Shown: one piece after another, positions 19,032 to 27,041 of the stretch
Numbering within the stretch: the first letter of the stretch is position 1
Layout of the letters: every line of letters starts with the position of its first letter
Assembly (NCBI GenBank): GCA_903893815.1
Contig: CAITNS010000009.1
Span: 1 to 52,659, forward strand
Direction: 5' to 3'
DNA length: 52,659 nt
Source of the DNA: an uncultured Bacteroidota bacterium
GTDB taxonomy: Bacteria > Bacteroidota > Bacteroidia > B-17B0 > Aurantibacillaceae
Translations under genes and position numbers: made by a program
The notes under the pieces: generated by a model
What the model saw: only the letters and a program-made list of their open reading frames with translations
Told to the model about the DNA's origin: nothing
The model's database searches: none

Positions 19032-21890
19032 ATGACGCCCTTTTTACAATACATAGCCCAATACATTTTCGAACATCATGCTAATGATACCGAGCGTTTA
19101 TGTATTGTATTGCCTAATAAACGAGGAGCTTTGTATTTAAAACAGCATTTGGCTCGGGCATTTCAAAAAACAATTTGGCTGCCCACTATCATTAGCGCTG
19201 AGGAATTGGTTGCAGAATTATCTGGCTTACAACAAGCTGATAGTATTGATTTAATTTGCGATTTGTATCAGGTTTATGTGGGTATTTTAAAAGAAAAAGC
19301 CGAACCTTTTGACGCTTTTGCCAAATGGGGAACATTAATGTTGCAGGATTTTAATGAAGCGGATCGCTATTTGGTAGATACAGATTCATTGTACCAAAAC
19401 TTAAAAGAAATTAAAGAAATTGAAAACTGGAGTTTGAGTGCTGACGACTTAACGTCTACTCAGCAAGATTATATTGACTTTATGTTTCAAATGGGAACTA
19501 TTTATAAAGAGTTCTCAAAAATATTACTTCAAAAAAAACAGGCTTACCAGGGTTTAATGTATCGTAAGTCGGTTGAAGGGTATAAAGATTCCGTTTATAT
19601 TAATCAGTTTTCCAAAATATTAATTTGTGGTTTTAATGCATTAAACAAAGCGGAGACAATTATTTTTTCGGATTTAGTAAAGGAGAAAAAAGCAAGTATC
19701 ATTTGGGATGGAGATAAATACTATGTGGATAATGAAGAATACGAAGCTGGATTGTTTCTTCGAAAAAACTTTACCAATACATGGTTAGATAGTAAAAATT
19801 ATATTGGAAACGATTTCAAAAATATCGCTAAACATATTGATATTGTTGCCGTTCCAAAGCAAATGGGGCAGGCGCAAGTCGTATCTCATCAATTGCATGA
19901 ATGGATTAAACAAGGAAAATCTTTAAATAAAACGGCTGTTGTTTTAGCAGACGAAAGTTTGCTATTCCCTATTTTAAATCAATTACCAGAGGAAATAAAA
20001 CATGTGAATATTACCATGGAATACCCTTTGCGTTTATCGCCAATTTACGATTTGATGGATAACTTAATTAGTTTGCATCAATCCACTCAAAAGGCAGGTG
20101 CCTCTAGTAGTTTTTACTTTGCCGATGTATTTAAAATTCTACAAAATTCATTATTTAAAAAGTATTATAAATCGTTTAACCCAAGTGTTCATTTACAATC
20201 GATTATTCAAAAAATAATAGATAAAAATTATGTGTGGTTAAATACAAAAGTGCTTGCGGAATTATTTGAAGACAATTATAAAAATATTGAAAGTTTATTT
20301 AATACTTGGTCTAATTCCTCGCAGGGGATTTTATCCATGTCACAAATTATAGAAGTGTTTAATGCTTCCGAAAGTGAGGACTTGCAGTTATCTTCAACTG
20401 AAAACGAATACTTACATGTATTCACCAAGTATTTTAATCGCTTACAGTCTTTAATTCAAACGCATCATTATCTAGATTCATTGCTCACTTTAAAAAGTTT
20501 ATACAAACAAATTATAGGCGCAGCTTCTGTACCATTTATTGGTGAACCTTTGCAAGGTTTGCAAATTATGGGTGTTTTAGAAACCCGTACCTTGGATTTT
20601 GAAAACATCATTTTATTGGGTGTCAATGAAGGAGTTTTACCTTCAGGTAAATCTGCTAATTCATTTATTCCTAACGACTTAAAGCGTTATCACGGCATGC
20701 CATTGTATGGCGATAAAGATGCAGTGTATGCCTATCACTTTTACAGGATTTTACAAAGAGCAAGTAATGTTTTGATTACCTATAATACCGAACACAGCGT
20801 GTTAGGCTCTGGTGAAAAAAGTCGTTTTATTACACAGTTGCAGTTTGAATTACAAAAGTATAGTCCACATCATACCATTACAGAGGTTATGTTAAGTGGC
20901 GGTGAGTTACCTGCTAGTTCCCGAAATGTTATTAGCATTAATAAAACAGATTTTAATTTAGCACCTATCATCAAAAAATTAACAACAAATGATGAATACA
21001 GTGGTTTAAGTCCTTCAGCTTTGCTTACATATAAAGACTGTGCTCTGCGTTTCTTTTTTAGATATGGTGCAGGTATTAAAGAAACCCAAGATGTTGAGGA
21101 AAGTGCGGAAGCTAACACACAAGGCTCTATTTTACACGAATCATTAGAGATGTTGTATAAGCCATTTATTGGAAGGGTTTTAACGGAAGAAAATATTAAG
21201 GAATGTCTTTCAAAAACAGAAGAAAGTGTAAACATAATCTTTCAAAATTATTTTAGTCAAAGAGAAAGTCAGTTTGGAAAGAATTTTTTACAACGAAAAG
21301 TAATTTATGAATACGTCAATAAATTATTAAGAAACGATTTAAAACTGATTCAGGATTCTAAAAAAACAAACGAGCTTTTAAGTTTAATAGACTTAGAAAA
21401 ATCATTGACTTCTTCTGTCATTATTGATATTAAAGGAGTTAATACAACTATTTATTTAAAAGGTTCAGCAGATAGAATTGATAAACTTGGAAACAAAATT
21501 AGAATCATTGATTATAAATCATCCGTGAAAGCAGATGATAAATTTAAATTTACCAATTTTGAAGATTTGTTTAAAGACAGTCAATACAATAAAATGTTAC
21601 AACTGTTTATGTATGCTTGGTTTGTGGTTAAAAATAAGTTGGCTCGCCCCGAAGATTTACAACCTTGTATCATTCCTTTTAAAAAGTTTGAAGAGCAACC
21701 TAAATTTATTATGGAAGAAACCAAAGGTGGCGGTATTTTAAATTTTACAGCGGAATTATTAGAGGAGTTTGAAACTCATTTAAAGTTAGAGATTTTAGGA
21801 ATGATTTCAGATGAAACATTTTTTTCCCAAACAGAGGACGAAGATAAATGTGAGTACTGCGCTTATGCCGGTATATGCAATGCTAAATAA
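19032..21890 (+). CDS. addB: AddB-like PD-(D/E)XK nuclease with an Fe-S cluster
   Basis: A 952-residue protein resembling the AddB subunit of AddAB, which processes double-strand breaks for recombination. The N-terminus has the degenerate helicase start ERLCIVLPNKRGALYL with no Walker A motif, typical of Bacteroidota AddB-like proteins. The C-terminal nuclease shows GSADRIDK and IIDYKSS (Asp827, Lys829). Four cysteines fit the AddB iron-sulfur staple: Cys670 in TYKDCALRFFF, and Cys940, Cys943 and Cys949 in CEYCAYAGIC at the very end. No addA gene is adjacent. Its last 305 bases are repeated, in decayed form, at 26737-27041. Confidence 0.85.
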   Translation: MTPFLQYIAQYIFEHHANDTERLCIVLPNKRGALYLKQHLARAFQKTIWLPTIISAEELVAELSGLQQADSIDLICDLYQVYVGILKEKAEPFDAFAKWGTLMLQDFNEADRYLVDTDSLYQNLKEIKEIENWSLSADDLTSTQQDYIDFMFQMGTIYKEFSKILLQKKQAYQGLMYRKSVEGYKDSVYINQFSKILICGFNALNKAETIIFSDLVKEKKASIIWDGDKYYVDNEEYEAGLFLRKNFTNTWLDSKNYIGNDFKNIAKHIDIVAVPKQMGQAQVVSHQLHEWIKQGKSLNKTAVVLADESLLFPILNQLPEEIKHVNITMEYPLRLSPIYDLMDNLISLHQSTQKAGASSSFYFADVFKILQNSLFKKYYKSFNPSVHLQSIIQKIIDKNYVWLNTKVLAELFEDNYKNIESLFNTWSNSSQGILSMSQIIEVFNASESEDLQLSSTENEYLHVFTKYFNRLQSLIQTHHYLDSLLTLKSLYKQIIGAASVPFIGEPLQGLQIMGVLETRTLDFENIILLGVNEGVLPSGKSANSFIPNDLKRYHGMPLYGDKDAVYAYHFYRILQRASNVLITYNTEHSVLGSGEKSRFITQLQFELQKYSPHHTITEVMLSGGELPASSRNVISINKTDFNLAPIIKKLTTNDEYSGLSPSALLTYKDCALRFFFRYGAGIKETQDVEESAEANTQGSILHESLEMLYKPFIGRVLTEENIKECLSKTEESVNIIFQNYFSQRESQFGKNFLQRKVIYEYVNKLLRNDLKLIQDSKKTNELLSLIDLEKSLTSSVIIDIKGVNTTIYLKGSADRIDKLGNKIRIIDYKSSVKADDKFKFTNFEDLFKDSQYNKMLQLFMYAWFVVKNKLARPEDLQPCIIPFKKFEEQPKFIMEETKGGGILNFTAELLEEFETHLKLEILGMISDETFFSQTEDEDKCEYCAYAGICNAK

Positions 21891-21909: not shown

Positions 21910-23949
21910 TTAAACTAATAAAGTATTTTCTATTTCCTCTGTAAATTTTACGCAAACAATTAATCCAGGAGCATTTCTATATTCAAAACTTCCTTTTAAT
22001 TGTTTGGTAAAAATATTTAATAATTTAAATCCTAATGAATTCACTTCTTTTATATTAAATTCAGCAGGTATTCCAGGGCCACTATCGGAAACGCATAAAG
22101 TAATTTCGTCTTCTATTTTTGTTAGCTTAACATAAATGTCTCCTTTTTTTTTGTCTAAAAATGCATATTTAAAACTATTTGTAATTAACTCATTTACAAT
22201 TAATGCAATTGGAACAGCTCTTTTGGCCGAAACAGAAACAGCCTCTAATTCAAAATGAACTGTAATGTTTTTATTTTTGTCAAAAAAGTTTCTTAAAAAT
22301 TCAACCAAATCTTTTAAGTAATCTTGTAAGTCTATTCTAACAAAGTTGTTTGATTTATAAAGTTTTTCATGAATTAATGACATGGCATTAATCCTTTGTT
22401 GAATTTCAGTAAATTGTATTTGTAAAAATTTATTATCGGTTCTAGCGCTCTGCATTTCTATTAATCCTGTTACTAATGCTAAATTATTTTTAACTCGATG
22501 ATGAATTTCTCCTAACAAGGCTTCTTTTTCTCGCAACGATTCACTAATATTTAACTCTTGTTCCTTTTTTTCAGTAATATCAATACTATAACCAATCATG
22601 TATTTAAACGCGCCTTTGTCAAACACTGGGTAAAATTTCCTAAGATTATAATTTACTTTGCCTTTTTTATTTATGTGAGAATCTTCAAAATCAATGGCAG
22701 TTCCAGTTTGTATAACTGATTTAAAAATTTCGTAACGTTTGAACGCATTTTCAGTATCGTAATTTTTTATTCTACAATATTCAAAATAATCTTTTCCAAT
22801 AATTTGTTTTCTGAGTTCAGCGTCTTTTACGCCAATTGTATTTACAAATAAATATTTAAAATCTTGATCAAAAATAGCAATTTCGATAGGTATGTTTGAG
22901 AAAATAGATTCGTAAAACAAAGTTTGTTCTTCAATTTTTTTTCTTTTTTCAATAACTTCATTTGCACTTTCAGTTACTTTTTGATTAAGGTTGCTTGAGT
23001 AAATTTGCAAACTATCTCGCATTGTTATTAAGGCATTTCCTAAAATATCTTCAGTACTTAATTTATTATATTGAACCGAGAAATTACCTTTTTCTATTTC
23101 ATTAGCAAATTTGGATGTTTTAGTGAAACTTTCAGATAAGGCATTAACTGATTGCGCCATATCTCCAATAATATTATTTTCTACCAGTAATTTTTGTTCT
23201 GGTAATTGACCTTTTGCTAATTGATGAATAATGTCATTCATCTTAACAACGGGCTTGGTGATACTACTTGAAATAAAATAAATGGCAATTAATATAAAAA
23301 ATAATAAGCCAAAAGATGATATAAGAATTGTAAAAGATATTTTTCTTGTATCTTCTCTTATTTCAGCTTCTAATTTTTGGGATAATGAATTATTAAGAAA
23401 TATAATATAATTTAATTTTTTAACCATTGATTTTGTTTTAGGAAGTATTTCATCCTCAATGATGTTTTCACATAAGAACTGTTTAGCCGGATTTTCATAA
23501 TCCTCAAAATTGACGAGAATGCTCATGATTTTTTTTTCAGATTTAATTAAATCTTCAAAATCTAAAATAAAAGATAAAAGACTATCTGTATTAAAATTTA
23601 TGCTGTTTTGATTATTCTTAAACTTTGAAATATAATTTGCTATTTTGTGCTTAGCATGATTATATCTGAATTTATGAAGAGAGTCCAAACTTTTCTTATC
23701 TTCAATTTCGTTAGGTAAATGAACCCAATTGGTGGCATACATTTTAGATTCTATCAATATGTCGCTTAATTCATCTAAATTTTCTATGTATGGATTAATT
23801 ATAGTTGATATTTTTTCAATGTTTGCTATTTGCTTGTTGGTTAAATAAATATTTAAACCAGTCTTTACAATTACTGTAATAATAATAGCAATAAATACAA
23901 TTGTAATTTTAGGGAAAGAGTTAAATACTATTCTTGATTTAAAATTCAT
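21910..23949 (-). CDS. Transmembrane sensor histidine kinase (HAMP-PAS-HisKA_2-HATPase)
   Basis: A 679-residue membrane kinase. TM1 is about 14-36, a helical periplasmic sensor 37-203, TM2 205-228, HAMP about 230-285 (SSITKPVVKMNDIIHQLAKG), coiled coil 320-342 and PAS about 343-465 (FSNIPIEIAIFDQDFKYLFVN). A HisKA_2/HWE-like dimerisation region has EIHHRVKNNL (His483/His484), and the ATPase domain has NELITNSFKYAF and SDSGPGIP. No receiver domain is fused and no response regulator is adjacent, so its output partner is unknown. Its stop lies 19 bp from the addB stop (convergent). It diverges from the TonB receptor/YfiR pair, which suggests that the periplasmic sensor listens to YfiR. Confidence 0.9.
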   Translation of the reverse strand: MNFKSRIVFNSFPKITIVFIAIIITVIVKTGLNIYLTNKQIANIEKISTIINPYIENLDELSDILIESKMYATNWVHLPNEIEDKKSLDSLHKFRYNHAKHKIANYISKFKNNQNSINFNTDSLLSFILDFEDLIKSEKKIMSILVNFEDYENPAKQFLCENIIEDEILPKTKSMVKKLNYIIFLNNSLSQKLEAEIREDTRKISFTILISSFGLLFFILIAIYFISSSITKPVVKMNDIIHQLAKGQLPEQKLLVENNIIGDMAQSVNALSESFTKTSKFANEIEKGNFSVQYNKLSTEDILGNALITMRDSLQIYSSNLNQKVTESANEVIEKRKKIEEQTLFYESIFSNIPIEIAIFDQDFKYLFVNTIGVKDAELRKQIIGKDYFEYCRIKNYDTENAFKRYEIFKSVIQTGTAIDFEDSHINKKGKVNYNLRKFYPVFDKGAFKYMIGYSIDITEKKEQELNISESLREKEALLGEIHHRVKNNLALVTGLIEMQSARTDNKFLQIQFTEIQQRINAMSLIHEKLYKSNNFVRIDLQDYLKDLVEFLRNFFDKNKNITVHFELEAVSVSAKRAVPIALIVNELITNSFKYAFLDKKKGDIYVKLTKIEDEITLCVSDSGPGIPAEFNIKEVNSLGFKLLNIFTKQLKGSFEYRNAPGLIVCVKFTEEIENTLLV

Positions 23950-24082
23950 TTTTATTTAGGACACTATTTTAGCTTATTGCTAAATATATTTTTAAAACAA
24001 TTATTTTTCAATTATCAAACGCGATGCAATTTCGTAAAAATATTATATAAATGCTAAAATATGTTTTTATATGCTTTTTTTT

Positions 24083-24090
24083 TATATTTG
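24083..24090 (+). promoter_or_regulatory. Candidate -7 box (TATATTTG) for the TonB receptor-YfiR operon
   Basis: An exact TAnnTTTG box between two candidate in-frame ATGs (24051 and 24099). If it is used, only the ATG at 24099 lies downstream, and that ATG opens a normal signal peptide. Confidence 0.45.
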
Positions 24091-24098
24091 TTCTTATT

Positions 24099-26141
24099 AT
24101 GAAATATTTTTTACGTGTTTTTTTTGTATATTCTATTATAACAAATAGTAGTTTTGCTCAAAATGATTCCACTTTAGTTAAAAAGGATTCAATTGACTAT
24201 TATGATATATCATTGGATCAATTAATAAATTTAAAGTCGCATGGGCTTCCTTCCGAATTAGAAGAGTTTGTAAATTCTTTAATTTCTGTAGCCTCTAAAA
24301 AACCTATTAATTTGCGCGAATCTCCTAGCATTATTTCCTTAATTACAGAAGAGGAAATAAAAAAATCGGGGGCTCGAGATTTGATTGATGTGTTGCGTTT
24401 AGTTCCCGGAATTGATTTTGCTGCAGATATTGAAGGTGTTGTTGGCATTGGCATGCGAGGTAATTGGGCCAATGAAGGAAAGGTCTTAGTTTTATTAGAT
24501 GGTCAGGAAATGAACGAAATTATATCAGCCGGCAATATGTTTGGCAATCATTATCCCATTGAGCAAATAAAAAAAATTGAAGTTATAAGAGGGCCGGGGT
24601 CTGCAATTTATGGTGGCTATGCAGAATATGGTGTTATTAATATTATTACTCGTCAAGCAGAGGATATAAATGGTATTACTATTTCAGGTACTTACGGACA
24701 AATGGAAAAAGACTATGGAAGAAGAAATTTGAATTTATCAATTGGAAAAAAAATAAAAGATTTTTCATTTAGTTTATCCGGATTAGTTGGGCAGGGGCAA
24801 AGAAGTGATCAAACCTATACAGATTATGCAGATTCAAGCTATTCAATGAAGGGAAATTCAAATTTAAATCCTAACTACTTTAACTTAGCTTTAGGATATA
24901 AAGGGTTAAGTTTTAGAGCCATTGGTGATTTTTTTCAAACCACCCAGCGCGATGGATATGGCACAGTTGTTCAGCAAGGTGCAGTTCCTGAAAGTTTTAA
25001 TTCATTTTTTTCTGAGTTAAAATATGTTTTTAAATTAAACGATAAATTTACAATAACACCACGAATTAATTATAAAAATCAAACGCCATGGAAAACACCA
25101 AGCTATGATTATTCTCGACCTTATAACAAAACTGGAATTAGATTATCGGAAAATATAACTGCCTCATACGATGCCAAAAGAAATTTGAATATTATTTTTG
25201 GTATTGAAAGTTATCAAGATAAAGCAATGGATAATACGGATAGTAGTTTTTTTGCAAACGGAAAAAAAGAAGTGAATTATATTAATTATTCTGTTTTTTC
25301 ACAAGCATTAATAAAAACAAGAGCGGTTAATTTTATTGTTGGCGCTCGGTTTGATAAGCACAGCGAATTTAATAGTGCTTTTGTTCCAAGAGTTGGGTTA
25401 ACAAAAAAATATAATAAGTTTCACTTTAAGGCTTTATATAGTCAAGCATTTAGGTCGCCATCTATTGATAATATAAATTCAGCTGATTCTACCGGTATAA
25501 AACCTGAACTGACTACTGTAATTGAAGCAGAAATAGGCTATCAAATTACCAGAAAATCTATTCTTACAGCAAATATATATGATATCACTACCCATGAACC
25601 AATTATTTATTATGTTTCGCAAGATAGTTCAAACACAGATTATTATACCAATTATGGACATTCGGGTTCGCAAGGTGTTGAAATTGAATACCGTTATAAA
25701 GATAAATGGGGATTTATAAATTTTAATTATTCTATATATACAGTTGCAAATAAAGAAAAAATATCAATTTATAAAGCAGATAACTCCCACTCTTTATTAG
25801 GTTTTGCAAATCGTAAAATTAACCTATCTGTTTGTTGGAATATTACAAAATCACTTTCTTTTAATAGCACATCTACTTTATATGGTCAGCGTTATGCTAT
25901 AGTGGCGATTGATAGTTCCGATAATTCTGTTATAAAACGATTAGATCCAACACTATTACTCAATTTTTTTGTGAGATATGAAACTCCTATAAAAGGATTA
26001 AGCGTTGGCATAGGTGTTTATGATGCATTAAATCAAAAATTTAAGTTTATACAACCTTATAACGGCGGCCACGCTCCATTACCTGGACCATCACGCGAAA
26101 TTATTTTTAGACTACATTATAACTTACAATTCAAAAAATAA
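24099..26141 (+). CDS. TonB-dependent receptor, BtuB-like
   Basis: A 680-residue outer-membrane receptor. Signal peptide MKYFLRVFFVYSIITNSSFA. The plug domain spans about 65-185 (IISLITEEEIKKSGARDLID, GIGMRGNW, VLLDGQEMNE, IEVIRGPGSAIYGG, GVINIITR). The 22-strand barrel follows and ends with ...REIIFRLHYNLQF, with an aromatic close to the C-terminus. There is no N-terminal carboxypeptidase-like domain and no SusD partner, so a polysaccharide-utilisation role is unlikely. It is co-transcribed with the YfiR gene 6 bp downstream. The alternative ATG at 24051 would add 16 hydrophobic residues. The ligand is unknown. Confidence 0.9.
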   Translation: MKYFLRVFFVYSIITNSSFAQNDSTLVKKDSIDYYDISLDQLINLKSHGLPSELEEFVNSLISVASKKPINLRESPSIISLITEEEIKKSGARDLIDVLRLVPGIDFAADIEGVVGIGMRGNWANEGKVLVLLDGQEMNEIISAGNMFGNHYPIEQIKKIEVIRGPGSAIYGGYAEYGVINIITRQAEDINGITISGTYGQMEKDYGRRNLNLSIGKKIKDFSFSLSGLVGQGQRSDQTYTDYADSSYSMKGNSNLNPNYFNLALGYKGLSFRAIGDFFQTTQRDGYGTVVQQGAVPESFNSFFSELKYVFKLNDKFTITPRINYKNQTPWKTPSYDYSRPYNKTGIRLSENITASYDAKRNLNIIFGIESYQDKAMDNTDSSFFANGKKEVNYINYSVFSQALIKTRAVNFIVGARFDKHSEFNSAFVPRVGLTKKYNKFHFKALYSQAFRSPSIDNINSADSTGIKPELTTVIEAEIGYQITRKSILTANIYDITTHEPIIYYVSQDSSNTDYYTNYGHSGSQGVEIEYRYKDKWGFINFNYSIYTVANKEKISIYKADNSHSLLGFANRKINLSVCWNITKSLSFNSTSTLYGQRYAIVAIDSSDNSVIKRLDPTLLLNFFVRYETPIKGLSVGIGVYDALNQKFKFIQPYNGGHAPLPGPSREIIFRLHYNLQFKK

Positions 26142-26147
26142 GATTAG

Positions 26148-26693
26148 TTGAATAAATTTAATCATATATTAAAATTTAGGAAGATTTATCTTTTTTTGAT
26201 GTTATTTACAATTGTTGTAAATAATAAATCAACTGCGCAATCAACAGATTATAAAGCATACTCATTATATGTATATAATTTTATGAAATATGTTGAATGG
26301 CCTGAAGAAGAAAGTAAAGGTGATTTTATTATTGCTCTTATTGGAGATTCTCAAATAAGTGATGAATTAAAAATAGTAGCTTCCAATAAAAAATTAAAAG
26401 GACGGAAGATTGTTTTTAAAACCTTTAAAGCGGTTGAAGATATTGCTTTTTGTCATTTACTTTATGTTTCTGCGTCAAAAAGTTCATCTATAAAAACTAT
26501 TAATCAAAAATTTGCAAATAAACCGGTGCTAATTGTTGGTGAACGCGAGGGCACTGTATATAAAGGAGCTGCATTAAGCTTTGTAACTACCGATGAAGAT
26601 GAGTTGAGATTTGATATTAATAAAAAAGAACTTGAAAATCATAAACTTAAAATAGCTAGTTCCTTAATTAAACTTGGTACATTAATAAACTAA
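26148..26693 (+). CDS. YfiR (DUF4154) family periplasmic protein
   Basis: A 181-residue exported protein starting at TTG, with a signal peptide ending around STAQ (residue 31) and a mature domain that fits DUF4154 from end to end. The hallmarks are YSLYVYNFMKYVEWPEE, IALIGDSQISDEL, LLYVSASKS, KPVLIVGEREG and the late ISSLIKLGTLIN-like tail (ASSLIKLGTLI). In Pseudomonas, YfiR is the periplasmic repressor of the HAMP-containing cyclase YfiN. Only 6 bp separate it from the receptor gene, so translation is coupled. I infer that it gates the divergently encoded histidine kinase. Confidence 0.88.
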   Translation: MNKFNHILKFRKIYLFLMLFTIVVNNKSTAQSTDYKAYSLYVYNFMKYVEWPEEESKGDFIIALIGDSQISDELKIVASNKKLKGRKIVFKTFKAVEDIAFCHLLYVSASKSSSIKTINQKFANKPVLIVGEREGTVYKGAALSFVTTDEDELRFDINKKELENHKLKIASSLIKLGTLIN

Positions 26694-26736
26694 CCTTGTT
26701 TGTTTAGTATTTTATAGAAAGTTTAAATCTTCACTT

Positions 26737-27041
26737 ACAATAAAATGTCACAATTGTTTATGCATGCTTGGTTTGTGGTTATTAATAAGTTGGCTCACCC
26801 CGAAGATTTACAACCTTGCATCATTCCTTTTAAAAAGTTTGAAGAGCATCCTAAAATTATCATGGAAGAAGTTAGAGGTGGTGGTATTTTAAATTTTACA
26901 ACGTAATTATTGGAAGACTTTACGAACCATTTAAAGCAGCAAATTGCTGAAATAATTGATAGTTCAGAAGCTTTCAAGCAAACAGAAGTCCATATAAATG
27001 CGAATATTGAGCCTATGCAAGCTTTTGTAATGCATAAATAG
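26737..27041 (+). pseudogene. Decayed duplicate of the addB 3' end
   Basis: This 305-nt segment aligns over its whole length with the last 305 nt of addB (21586-21890), including long identical stretches such as CAATAAAATG and CCCCGAAGATTTACAACC. It is dead. A GAA codon has become TAA (ACAACGTAATTA), a one-base deletion shifts the frame near 26994, and TGC of the second cluster cysteine reads TGA in the original frame. The positions of the first and third C-terminal cysteines are still recognisable at nucleotide level. It has no start of its own. It directly follows the kinase-receptor-YfiR block and so forms, with the addB end, a direct repeat flanking that block. Confidence 0.93.

Follow-up and report, generated by a model that had tools for sequence, protein, structure and literature searches.

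Can an outer-membrane TonB receptor, a periplasmic YfiR-like protein and an inner-membrane histidine kinase that are encoded side by side serve as one line of communication across the cell envelope? The question is raised by three neighbouring genes in a stretch of 52,659 nucleotides (positions 1 to 52,659 of GenBank CAITNS010000009.1; this stretch, on contig C9 of a 3.69-Mb draft genome, is here called the window) from an uncultured Bacteroidota bacterium of the Aurantibacillaceae (assembly GCA_903893815.1). The gene of a transmembrane HisKA_2 sensor kinase of 679 amino acids (21910..23949, minus strand) is separated by a 101-bp spacer (23950..24050) from the divergent gene of a TonB-dependent receptor of 696 amino acids (24051..26141, plus strand; 680 amino acids from the likelier start, the second in-frame ATG at 24099, where the signal peptide begins), and 6 bp further on lies the gene of a YfiR-like periplasmic protein of the DUF4154 family (181 amino acids with a signal peptide; 26148..26693, plus strand). 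This layout had been given in a preliminary description of the sequence, and both its coordinates and its gene calls are correct. The three genes form a conserved, tightly linked cassette, and they probably constitute one trans-envelope signalling unit, running from receptor to YfiR, on to the sensor kinase and from there to an unlinked response regulator.

Linkage of receptor, YfiR and sensor

The linkage was assessed in 296 genomes drawn evenly from Bacteroidota, 33 of which carry DUF4154, at 49 places with the window included (two of the 49 score under the family cut-off), and the surroundings of all 49 genes were annotated with domain profiles built in this analysis. A TonB receptor is the immediate same-strand neighbour of 31 of the 49 DUF4154 genes, versus 1 of 264 background genes lying at least four genes away from DUF4154, and 31 is a lower bound, as the Plug profile misses a receptor of another class in locus L034 that Pfam names. 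Within two genes of DUF4154, the outputs comprised an HATPase protein (25), a fused kinase (5), a SpoIIE phosphatase (3), a HAMP sensor with another or cut output (3) or none of these (13), and the inner-membrane partner was most commonly a CHASE8 protein (23), followed by loci with neither sensor nearby (17), fusions (5) and the sensor domain of the window (4). An exact 4-bp overlap joins receptor and YfiR genes in 17 of 47 pairs, many of the 17 being close relatives. The preliminary description had proposed such a survey and had taken a lack of conserved co-occurrence as evidence against the system; the survey was strongly positive, the linkage of receptor, YfiR and sensor is above chance, and it extends across Bacteroidota and onto plasmids of three Pseudomonadota classes.

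The closer relatives were obtained by a YfiR scan of named genomes, from which the best 80 of 549 matches, to which the following counts refer, gave loci L079 to L158. YfiR identity is at least 44% in 21 loci (L079–L099), in 20 of which the receptor adjoins YfiR, and the divergent layout of the window recurs in 12 of the 21 (L079–L089 and L098, with L082 and L089 cut by a contig end). Runs of receptor, YfiR and kinase were also observed in Desulfobacteraceae (L131), Calditrichaeota (L141) and Planctomycetota (L157), as assigned from the record titles. When 72,556 plasmids were searched at E up to 1e-20, the YfiR of L131 matched 7 records and the receptor of L131, searched separately, matched 6, all within the same 7; these records stem from alpha-, beta- and gammaproteobacteria, the receptor directly adjoins YfiR in 6 of them and an IS30 transposase lies in between in the other (L186). 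A CHASE8 protein follows in all 7, with a kinase-receiver output in L183 and L184 (Pfam) and L182 (our own profiles) and a GGDEF-EAL output in L185 and L188 (Pfam), the scan of these proteins having covered the records other than L186 and L187. In these last two, both Pseudoalteromonas records, the receptor gene near YfiR looks broken.

Some of the annotations are to be read with their limits. Our own open reading frame calls and profiles show no DUF4154 in L102 and L125, whereas in L182, L183, L184 and L188 the DUF4154 gene was not called separately, owing to longer overlapping frames, and tblastn matches and the record annotation were used instead. The first kinase profile, which picked up HAMP-SpoIIE proteins and a MutL (L117) as well, was replaced by separate domain profiles; the MutL is still labelled as an HATPase by these and stands outside every count.

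The sensor kinase and its exchangeable relatives

The kinase is arranged in the order transmembrane helix, periplasmic sensor, transmembrane helix, HAMP-like, PAS-like, HisKA_2 and HATPase_c. Among the modules named in the preliminary description, HisKA_2 is well above its Pfam cut-off (84.7 against 22.3 bits; residues 481–553, 22291..22509, minus strand, with the motif IHHRVKNN at residue 482), as is HATPase_c (36.4 against 26.4 bits; residues 580–669, 21943..22212, minus strand), while HAMP (16.2 against 25 bits; HAMP-like region at residues 225–274, 23128..23277, minus strand) and PAS (22.6 against 27 and 20.8 against 23.1 bits) stay below theirs in the window protein. Other proteins sharing the sensor do show HAMP above the cut-off, for example in L032 (27.9 bits) and L114 (27.8 bits).

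The periplasmic sensor domain itself (residues 41–189, 23383..23829, minus strand) matched no Pfam or NCBIfam family. It is probably all-helical, since a stretch of 169 residues holds no glycine and four prolines, and the family shows a weak likeness to four-helix sensors of methyl-accepting chemotaxis proteins (MCPs), with 23.9 bits for L114 against a cut-off of 27; its conserved points include the stretches S-K-M..T-N-W-V and I-M..L..F..Y-E. Neither CHASE8 nor GGDEF was found by Pfam in the window kinase, and a profile comparison of the sensor with CHASE8 gave no similarity (hhalign probability 0.1 on a scale of 100), so that homology with CHASE8 was rejected and the sensor is distinct from the PAS-like domain of YfiN.

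This domain is a member of a family found almost only beside YfiR. Among the loci fetched around YfiR, a set chosen by YfiR, the sensor was found in 31 proteins, namely 5 HisKA_2 kinases, 15 HAMP-SpoIIE proteins, 6 proteins of HAMP-GAF-PAS or the same build (two of them checked with Pfam), 1 MCP (L114) and 4 cut or unclassified proteins. In the phylum sample it occurs in 5 of the 296 genomes, all among the 33 with DUF4154 (chance 1.3e-5, ancestry ignored), and 4 of the 6 copies lie beside DUF4154. Within the order of the window, sampled as 87 genomes that all belong to one family, the sensor is present in 80 genomes, every one of which also has DUF4154 (itself present in 83), and a DUF4154 gene is no more than 5 kb away from 92 of the 103 sensor copies. 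Of these 92 pairs, 73 are co-directional at a spacing of about 1.05 kb and 19 are divergent; in 17 of the 19 the gap is receptor-sized (2383–2498 bp). As for the 11 copies with no YfiR within 5 kb, 10 belong to drafts of at least 120 contigs, and three of these adjoin a receptor. The sensor together with HAMP was also noted at L159:8386-10320 and L160:9659-11593, in two genomes that have no YfiR for about 9 kb around it.

Across related cassettes the receptor, YfiR and the sensor are retained, and the cytoplasmic output varies. The closest relatives share one layout and come in two kinds, with a kinase (the window, L079, L080, L081 and L098) or with a SpoIIE phosphatase (L083–L089 and others), and the 12 closest relatives of divergent layout, among the best 80 of 549 matches, comprise 7 with SpoIIE, 4 with a kinase and 1 that is cut. 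The kinase had been proposed to replace YfiN as the output; its role as an output is upheld, and it is one of several outputs rather than the only one. In a tree of receptor plus YfiR the kinase cassettes form one clade (support 0.996). In the midpoint-rooted tree, where the root is uncertain, this clade is nested among SpoIIE cassettes, which suggests that a kinase took over from the phosphatase once, the front end staying as it was. YfiR has moreover been fused to outputs directly. DUF4154-HisKA-HATPase fusions were observed in L055 to L059, each beside a TonB receptor (L055 and L057 checked with Pfam), and DUF4154-SpoIIE fusions at L173:5889-7664, L176:5630-7396, L174:6868-9381 and L175:6719-9295 (our own profiles), with DUF4154 in tandem in L174 and L175.

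These fusions bear on whether the locus is an ordinary regulated uptake operon, in which the receptor would import a nutrient, YfiR would bind the nutrient or the receptor, and the divergent kinase would only control expression of the pair in response to a signal that it senses on its own. The divergent layout of regulator and target would suit such an operon, as would the weak binding of vitamin B6 or L-Trp by Pseudomonas aeruginosa YfiR, reported in passages of PMC4887326, and the view of the receptor TOL_0244 of Thalassolituus oleivorans as an alkane uptake protein in parts of PMC6304351. The fusion of YfiR to kinases and SpoIIE phosphatases points the other way, as do the tie of the sensor to YfiR even where no receptor was seen and the presence of SpoIIE, GAF-PAS or MCP proteins in the same place, unlike regulators of one operon; we regard the uptake operon as unlikely.

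The kind of output was also considered at the level of the host. No GGDEF match was found in the host genome, with a search whose control was positive in 8 of 14 known genomes, and the 87 genomes of the order gave one short, stop-bearing match. There is therefore no diguanylate cyclase output in the host, and an output through cyclic di-GMP (c-di-GMP) was rejected, in keeping with the earlier proposal that the signal is relayed to phosphorylation rather than to c-di-GMP. A phosphorylation target would be sought outside the contig, for contig C9 has no response regulator match, as had been described, and 37 matches lie elsewhere in the genome. A phosphorelay is visible in several CHASE8 or fused cassettes, which continue with a receiver protein and a receiver-kinase. 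A single receiver protein and a receiver-kinase, making a linked phosphorelay, were seen after YfiR and kinase in L040, L047, L055, L058, L059 and L141.

Several of the observations weigh against the proposed unit. In 18 of the 49 places of the phylum sample no TonB receptor was found as the immediate neighbour, and the receptor is not obligatory; at 13 of the 49, neither a kinase nor a SpoIIE nor a sensor gene lies within two genes. The host has a second YfiR system, with a TPR-like protein in the place of the receptor, and this receptor-less spacing (YfiR-TPR-SpoIIE) recurs in 73 of the order's 92 sensor-YfiR pairs. G049 and G186 have sensor copies around which YfiR is absent for about 9 kb, and G298 is a clear exception in the order, its sensor lying on a single contig with no YfiR within about 7 kb. 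The adjacency on plasmids, finally, was obtained with a query that is itself a receptor-linked YfiR and favours receptor-linked relatives.

In a rival reading, YfiR and the sensor would sense the periplasmic state by themselves (redox, small molecules or envelope stress), and the TonB receptor would be a co-regulated passenger. The prevalence of receptor-less spacing in the order agrees with this, and so do parts of PMC3375315, where P. aeruginosa YfiR is proposed as a redox sensor also without YfiB, and the distances among window-type cassettes, in which those of YfiR follow the sensor (r 0.90) more closely than the receptor (r 0.79; 91 locus pairs, shared ancestry uncontrolled). Set against it are the 31 of 49 receptor adjacencies in the phylum together with the plasmid records of three classes, the N-terminal block of the linked receptors that is missing or replaced in eight YfiR-less relatives (below), and the single cysteine of the window YfiR, which leaves no internal disulphide switch. 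A passenger receptor is thus held to be rather improbable, and the signalling unit with the receptor as its input is preferred.

Further arrangements of YfiR were noted. In the second system of the host (G000:C47, L032:9073-12330), YfiR is followed by a 302-amino-acid protein, TPR-like by eye, and by a HAMP-SpoIIE protein with the same sensor. L123, L128–L130, L137, L138 and similar loci hold two or three successive YfiR genes, and these arrays often precede a small histidine kinase (about 360 amino acids) and follow a gene that looks peptidase-like (by eye, M42-like). L113, titled as a metagenome-assembled genome of Bifidobacterium breve, carries a YfiR-TPR-SpoIIE cassette of a kind otherwise seen here in Bacteroidota, and its label is probably a binning or naming error.

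YfiR, the receptor and its pre-plug block

The window YfiR matches DUF4154 (PF13689, YfiR-HmsC-like) with 121.5 bits against a Pfam cut-off of 24.9, and among solved structures it matches YfiR chains best, with a modest E value (0.004). It has a single cysteine and so lacks the two conserved pairs of P. aeruginosa YfiR, given as Cys71-Cys110 and Cys145-Cys152 in PMC4655355; these pairs are a mark of P. aeruginosa YfiR rather than of the Pfam family. A disulphide switch of the P. aeruginosa type is therefore impossible within the protein. A first YfiR alignment held no stretch conserved enough for a scan, and YfiR-only rows scatter when they are added to the receptor-YfiR alignment.

The receptor shows a Plug domain (66.8 bits against a cut-off of 23.9; residues 88–194, 24312..24632, plus strand), and its barrel gave no Pfam match. 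The Plug domain is preceded by an N-terminal block (residues 50–85, 24198..24305, plus strand) that is typical of YfiR-linked receptors and consists of a SLDQL-type segment and then a stretch that we read as TonB-box-like, the label being our own. The possibility of FecA-type cell-surface signalling, from receptor to anti-sigma to ECF sigma factor with the neighbours unrelated, is suggested by the fact that TonB receptors are established transducers in such systems. The receptor carries no N-terminal signalling domain, Plug being the only domain found, and no sigma or anti-sigma domain occurs in the seven window proteins scanned; this possibility was rejected as very remote.

A receptor-profile search of the 87 genomes of the order (E up to 1e-40) gave 21 strong matches in 20 genomes, 20 of which adjoin a sensor gene, while the remaining one, a gene half on another contig, adjoins YfiR; YfiR adjoins 18 of the 21. 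In a weaker group of nine receptors the model match begins at position 33 or later, and in eight at 56–67. Eight of the nine (L189–L196) belong to loci without YfiR, with SpoIIE genes as direct or close neighbours; five of these SpoIIE proteins were scanned and showed TPR and SpoIIE domains. The ninth (G343, L197) carries the N-terminal block and is part of a gene run that includes YfiR. In the eight relatives with no YfiR in the locus the block is missing or replaced. In an alignment of 63 receptors, judged by eye, the pre-plug block with its L-S-L-E-E-L type segment marks the YfiR-linked receptors, and among 12 other receptor entries (10 distinct genes) it is present in two: in L179 the receptor belongs to the YfiR run, as the third gene counted from YfiR, and in L122 it lies elsewhere in a YfiR locus. 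We infer that the block is the best candidate for a YfiR dock. Near the YfiR-less receptors of this lineage, a SiaC-family protein was observed in L190 and DUF6272 domains in L190 and L194; the receptors of L189 to L196 with their SpoIIE proteins are possibly a second receptor-to-phosphatase pathway.

The surroundings of the cassette indicate how it may have reached its site. A 201-bp direct repeat flanks it, with the left copy (21585..21785, plus strand) inside the 3' end of addB (19032-21890) and the right copy (26736..26936, plus strand; 87.6% identical) downstream of YfiR as a remnant of an addB 3' end, which runs on in step with the addB end and downstream spacer of the sister species G365. 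In G365, whose AddB protein is 96% identical, addB is followed directly by a 322-amino-acid gene and fabD, with no cassette. The window addB is mostly 90–100% identical to that of G365 (78% in the lowest 60-base window) up to about 21730 and then drops, the last 147 bases sharing 69% identity with G365 and no more than 75% with any of eight congeners, whereas the 300 bases before them are 96% and the remnant to the right of the cassette 91% identical to G365. The last ~150 nucleotides of addB thus look foreign, and this drop together with the G365-like remnant makes it most likely, judged from these identities, that homologous recombination brought in the cassette together with a foreign addB 3' end, probably as one unit. 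Had G365 instead lost the cassette through recombination across the two repeats, that species would look the same, but the cassette is beside addB in none of the other addB loci fetched (L199–L202, L204 and L205; L203 was too short), which favours gain. A complication is seen in G371 (L162), where fabD is immediately preceded by the cassette and addB is located on a different contig, and the history around fabD is therefore not simple. In G366 (L204:6862-8689), a 464-amino-acid repeat-rich, lipoprotein-like gene lies between an addB 3' remnant and addB, and the addB 3' end may be a recurrent insertion site in the genus. A mobile element with terminal repeats was dropped because the addB repeat explains the insertion instead; no sequence word of at least 10 bases, in either orientation, is shared by the two cassette ends that were compared. 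Anti-phage defence was also rejected, as the three cassette proteins gave no PADLOC match.

Relation to known systems and biological meaning

The trio of receptor, YfiR-like protein and kinase was evidently already recognised by the NCBIfam curators, for three consecutive models describe it, NF053590 (TOL_0244 family receptor), NF053591 (TOL_0243 family YfiR-like protein) and NF053592 (YfiR-associated sensor kinase), and the window has the same three kinds of protein as neighbours. L131 passes all three cut-offs. The window receptor and YfiR have NF053590 and NF053591 as their best NCBIfam matches, yet at 103.6 of 645 and 106.7 of 125 bits they remain below the cut-offs; the N-terminus of the window kinase has no NF053592 match at E up to 1, that of L040 reaching 134.6 bits (cut-off 194). 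The window thus differs from the NCBIfam trio in its sensor, in HisKA_2 instead of HisKA and in its divergent orientation.

In layout the system is like YfiBNR of P. aeruginosa and Escherichia coli, with a DUF4154 protein beside a transmembrane signalling protein and an outer-membrane partner in the cluster, but it is not a YfiBNR member, having no GGDEF output and no CHASE8 sensor, a YfiR with one cysteine, and a TonB receptor instead of the Pal-like lipoprotein YfiB. No OmpA/Pal-like lipoprotein YfiB was found in a scan of 7 window proteins, to which the search for it was confined. In sections of Malone et al. 2012 (PMC3375315) a YfiR core is proposed to be widespread and to be joined to kinase, GGDEF-EAL, HPT or MCP outputs, and almost all divergent YfiN-YfiR operons are reported to lack YfiB; in those divergent systems the PAS-like domain of YfiN is the constant partner, whereas in the window the partner domain itself is replaced. 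A kinase in place of YfiN is accordingly not new, as it figures in those sections and in the NCBIfam kinase model. The word TonB has 0 occurrences in that paper (PMC3375315), and no description of a YfiR-TonB receptor operon was found in the open-access papers searched, subscription journals lying mostly outside this set. Structures of YfiR with YfiB, and a surface shared by YfiB and YfiN, are described in parts of PMC4655355 and PMC4887326. TOL_0244, the namesake of the NCBIfam receptor model, was sevenfold up on the n-C28 alkane relative to Tween 80 and is 40.3% similar to OmpS, a protein of Alcanivorax dieselolei (Wang and Shao 2014, as given there) that reportedly senses alkanes and sets off a chemotactic response, according to portions of PMC6304351; the window receptor is distant from TOL_0244. 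Moreover, the SpoIIE protein of a sister cassette resembles SiaA of the SiaABCD system (L085, 236 bits, below the cut-off of 700), and the window differs in having a kinase in that output place and, with no GGDEF found in the host, no SiaD-like cyclase. What is new here is a variant of the known YfiR systems with a dedicated sensor, interchangeable outputs and no c-di-GMP.

Within the proposed unit, the outer-membrane receptor would detect a ligand, and a TonB-coupled change in its periplasmic N-terminal segment would set the amount of free YfiR, which would bind the helical sensor at the inner membrane and set the activity of the kinase through HAMP, the kinase then phosphorylating an unlinked response regulator. 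By analogy with YfiN, repression of the kinase by YfiR is the likelier sign. The receptor would take the place of YfiB as the outer-membrane input, a placement suggested by gene linkage. In a wider and more tentative version, which we hold to be somewhat less than an even prospect, YfiR would be a general periplasmic carrier with both ends exchangeable, the outer inputs being a TonB receptor, a Pal-like lipoprotein or perhaps a TPR protein, the inner sensors CHASE8 or the unrelated helical domain, and the outputs a kinase, a SpoIIE phosphatase or a chemotaxis receptor; where a receptor is the input, the block beside the TonB box would be the YfiR dock, and its movement, driven by the ligand and TonB, would release or capture YfiR. 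A TonB receptor would then signal with neither a sigma/anti-sigma pair nor c-di-GMP.

Bacteroidota have very many TonB receptors, and the sigma/anti-sigma route is their established means of inward signalling. If the proposed unit is real, YfiR would provide them with a second, modular path to kinases and phosphatases, and many orphan receptors and kinases would gain a testable partner. It would also account for YfiR in bacteria where no GGDEF domain is found, and the question of what YfiR systems sense would become a search for receptor ligands.

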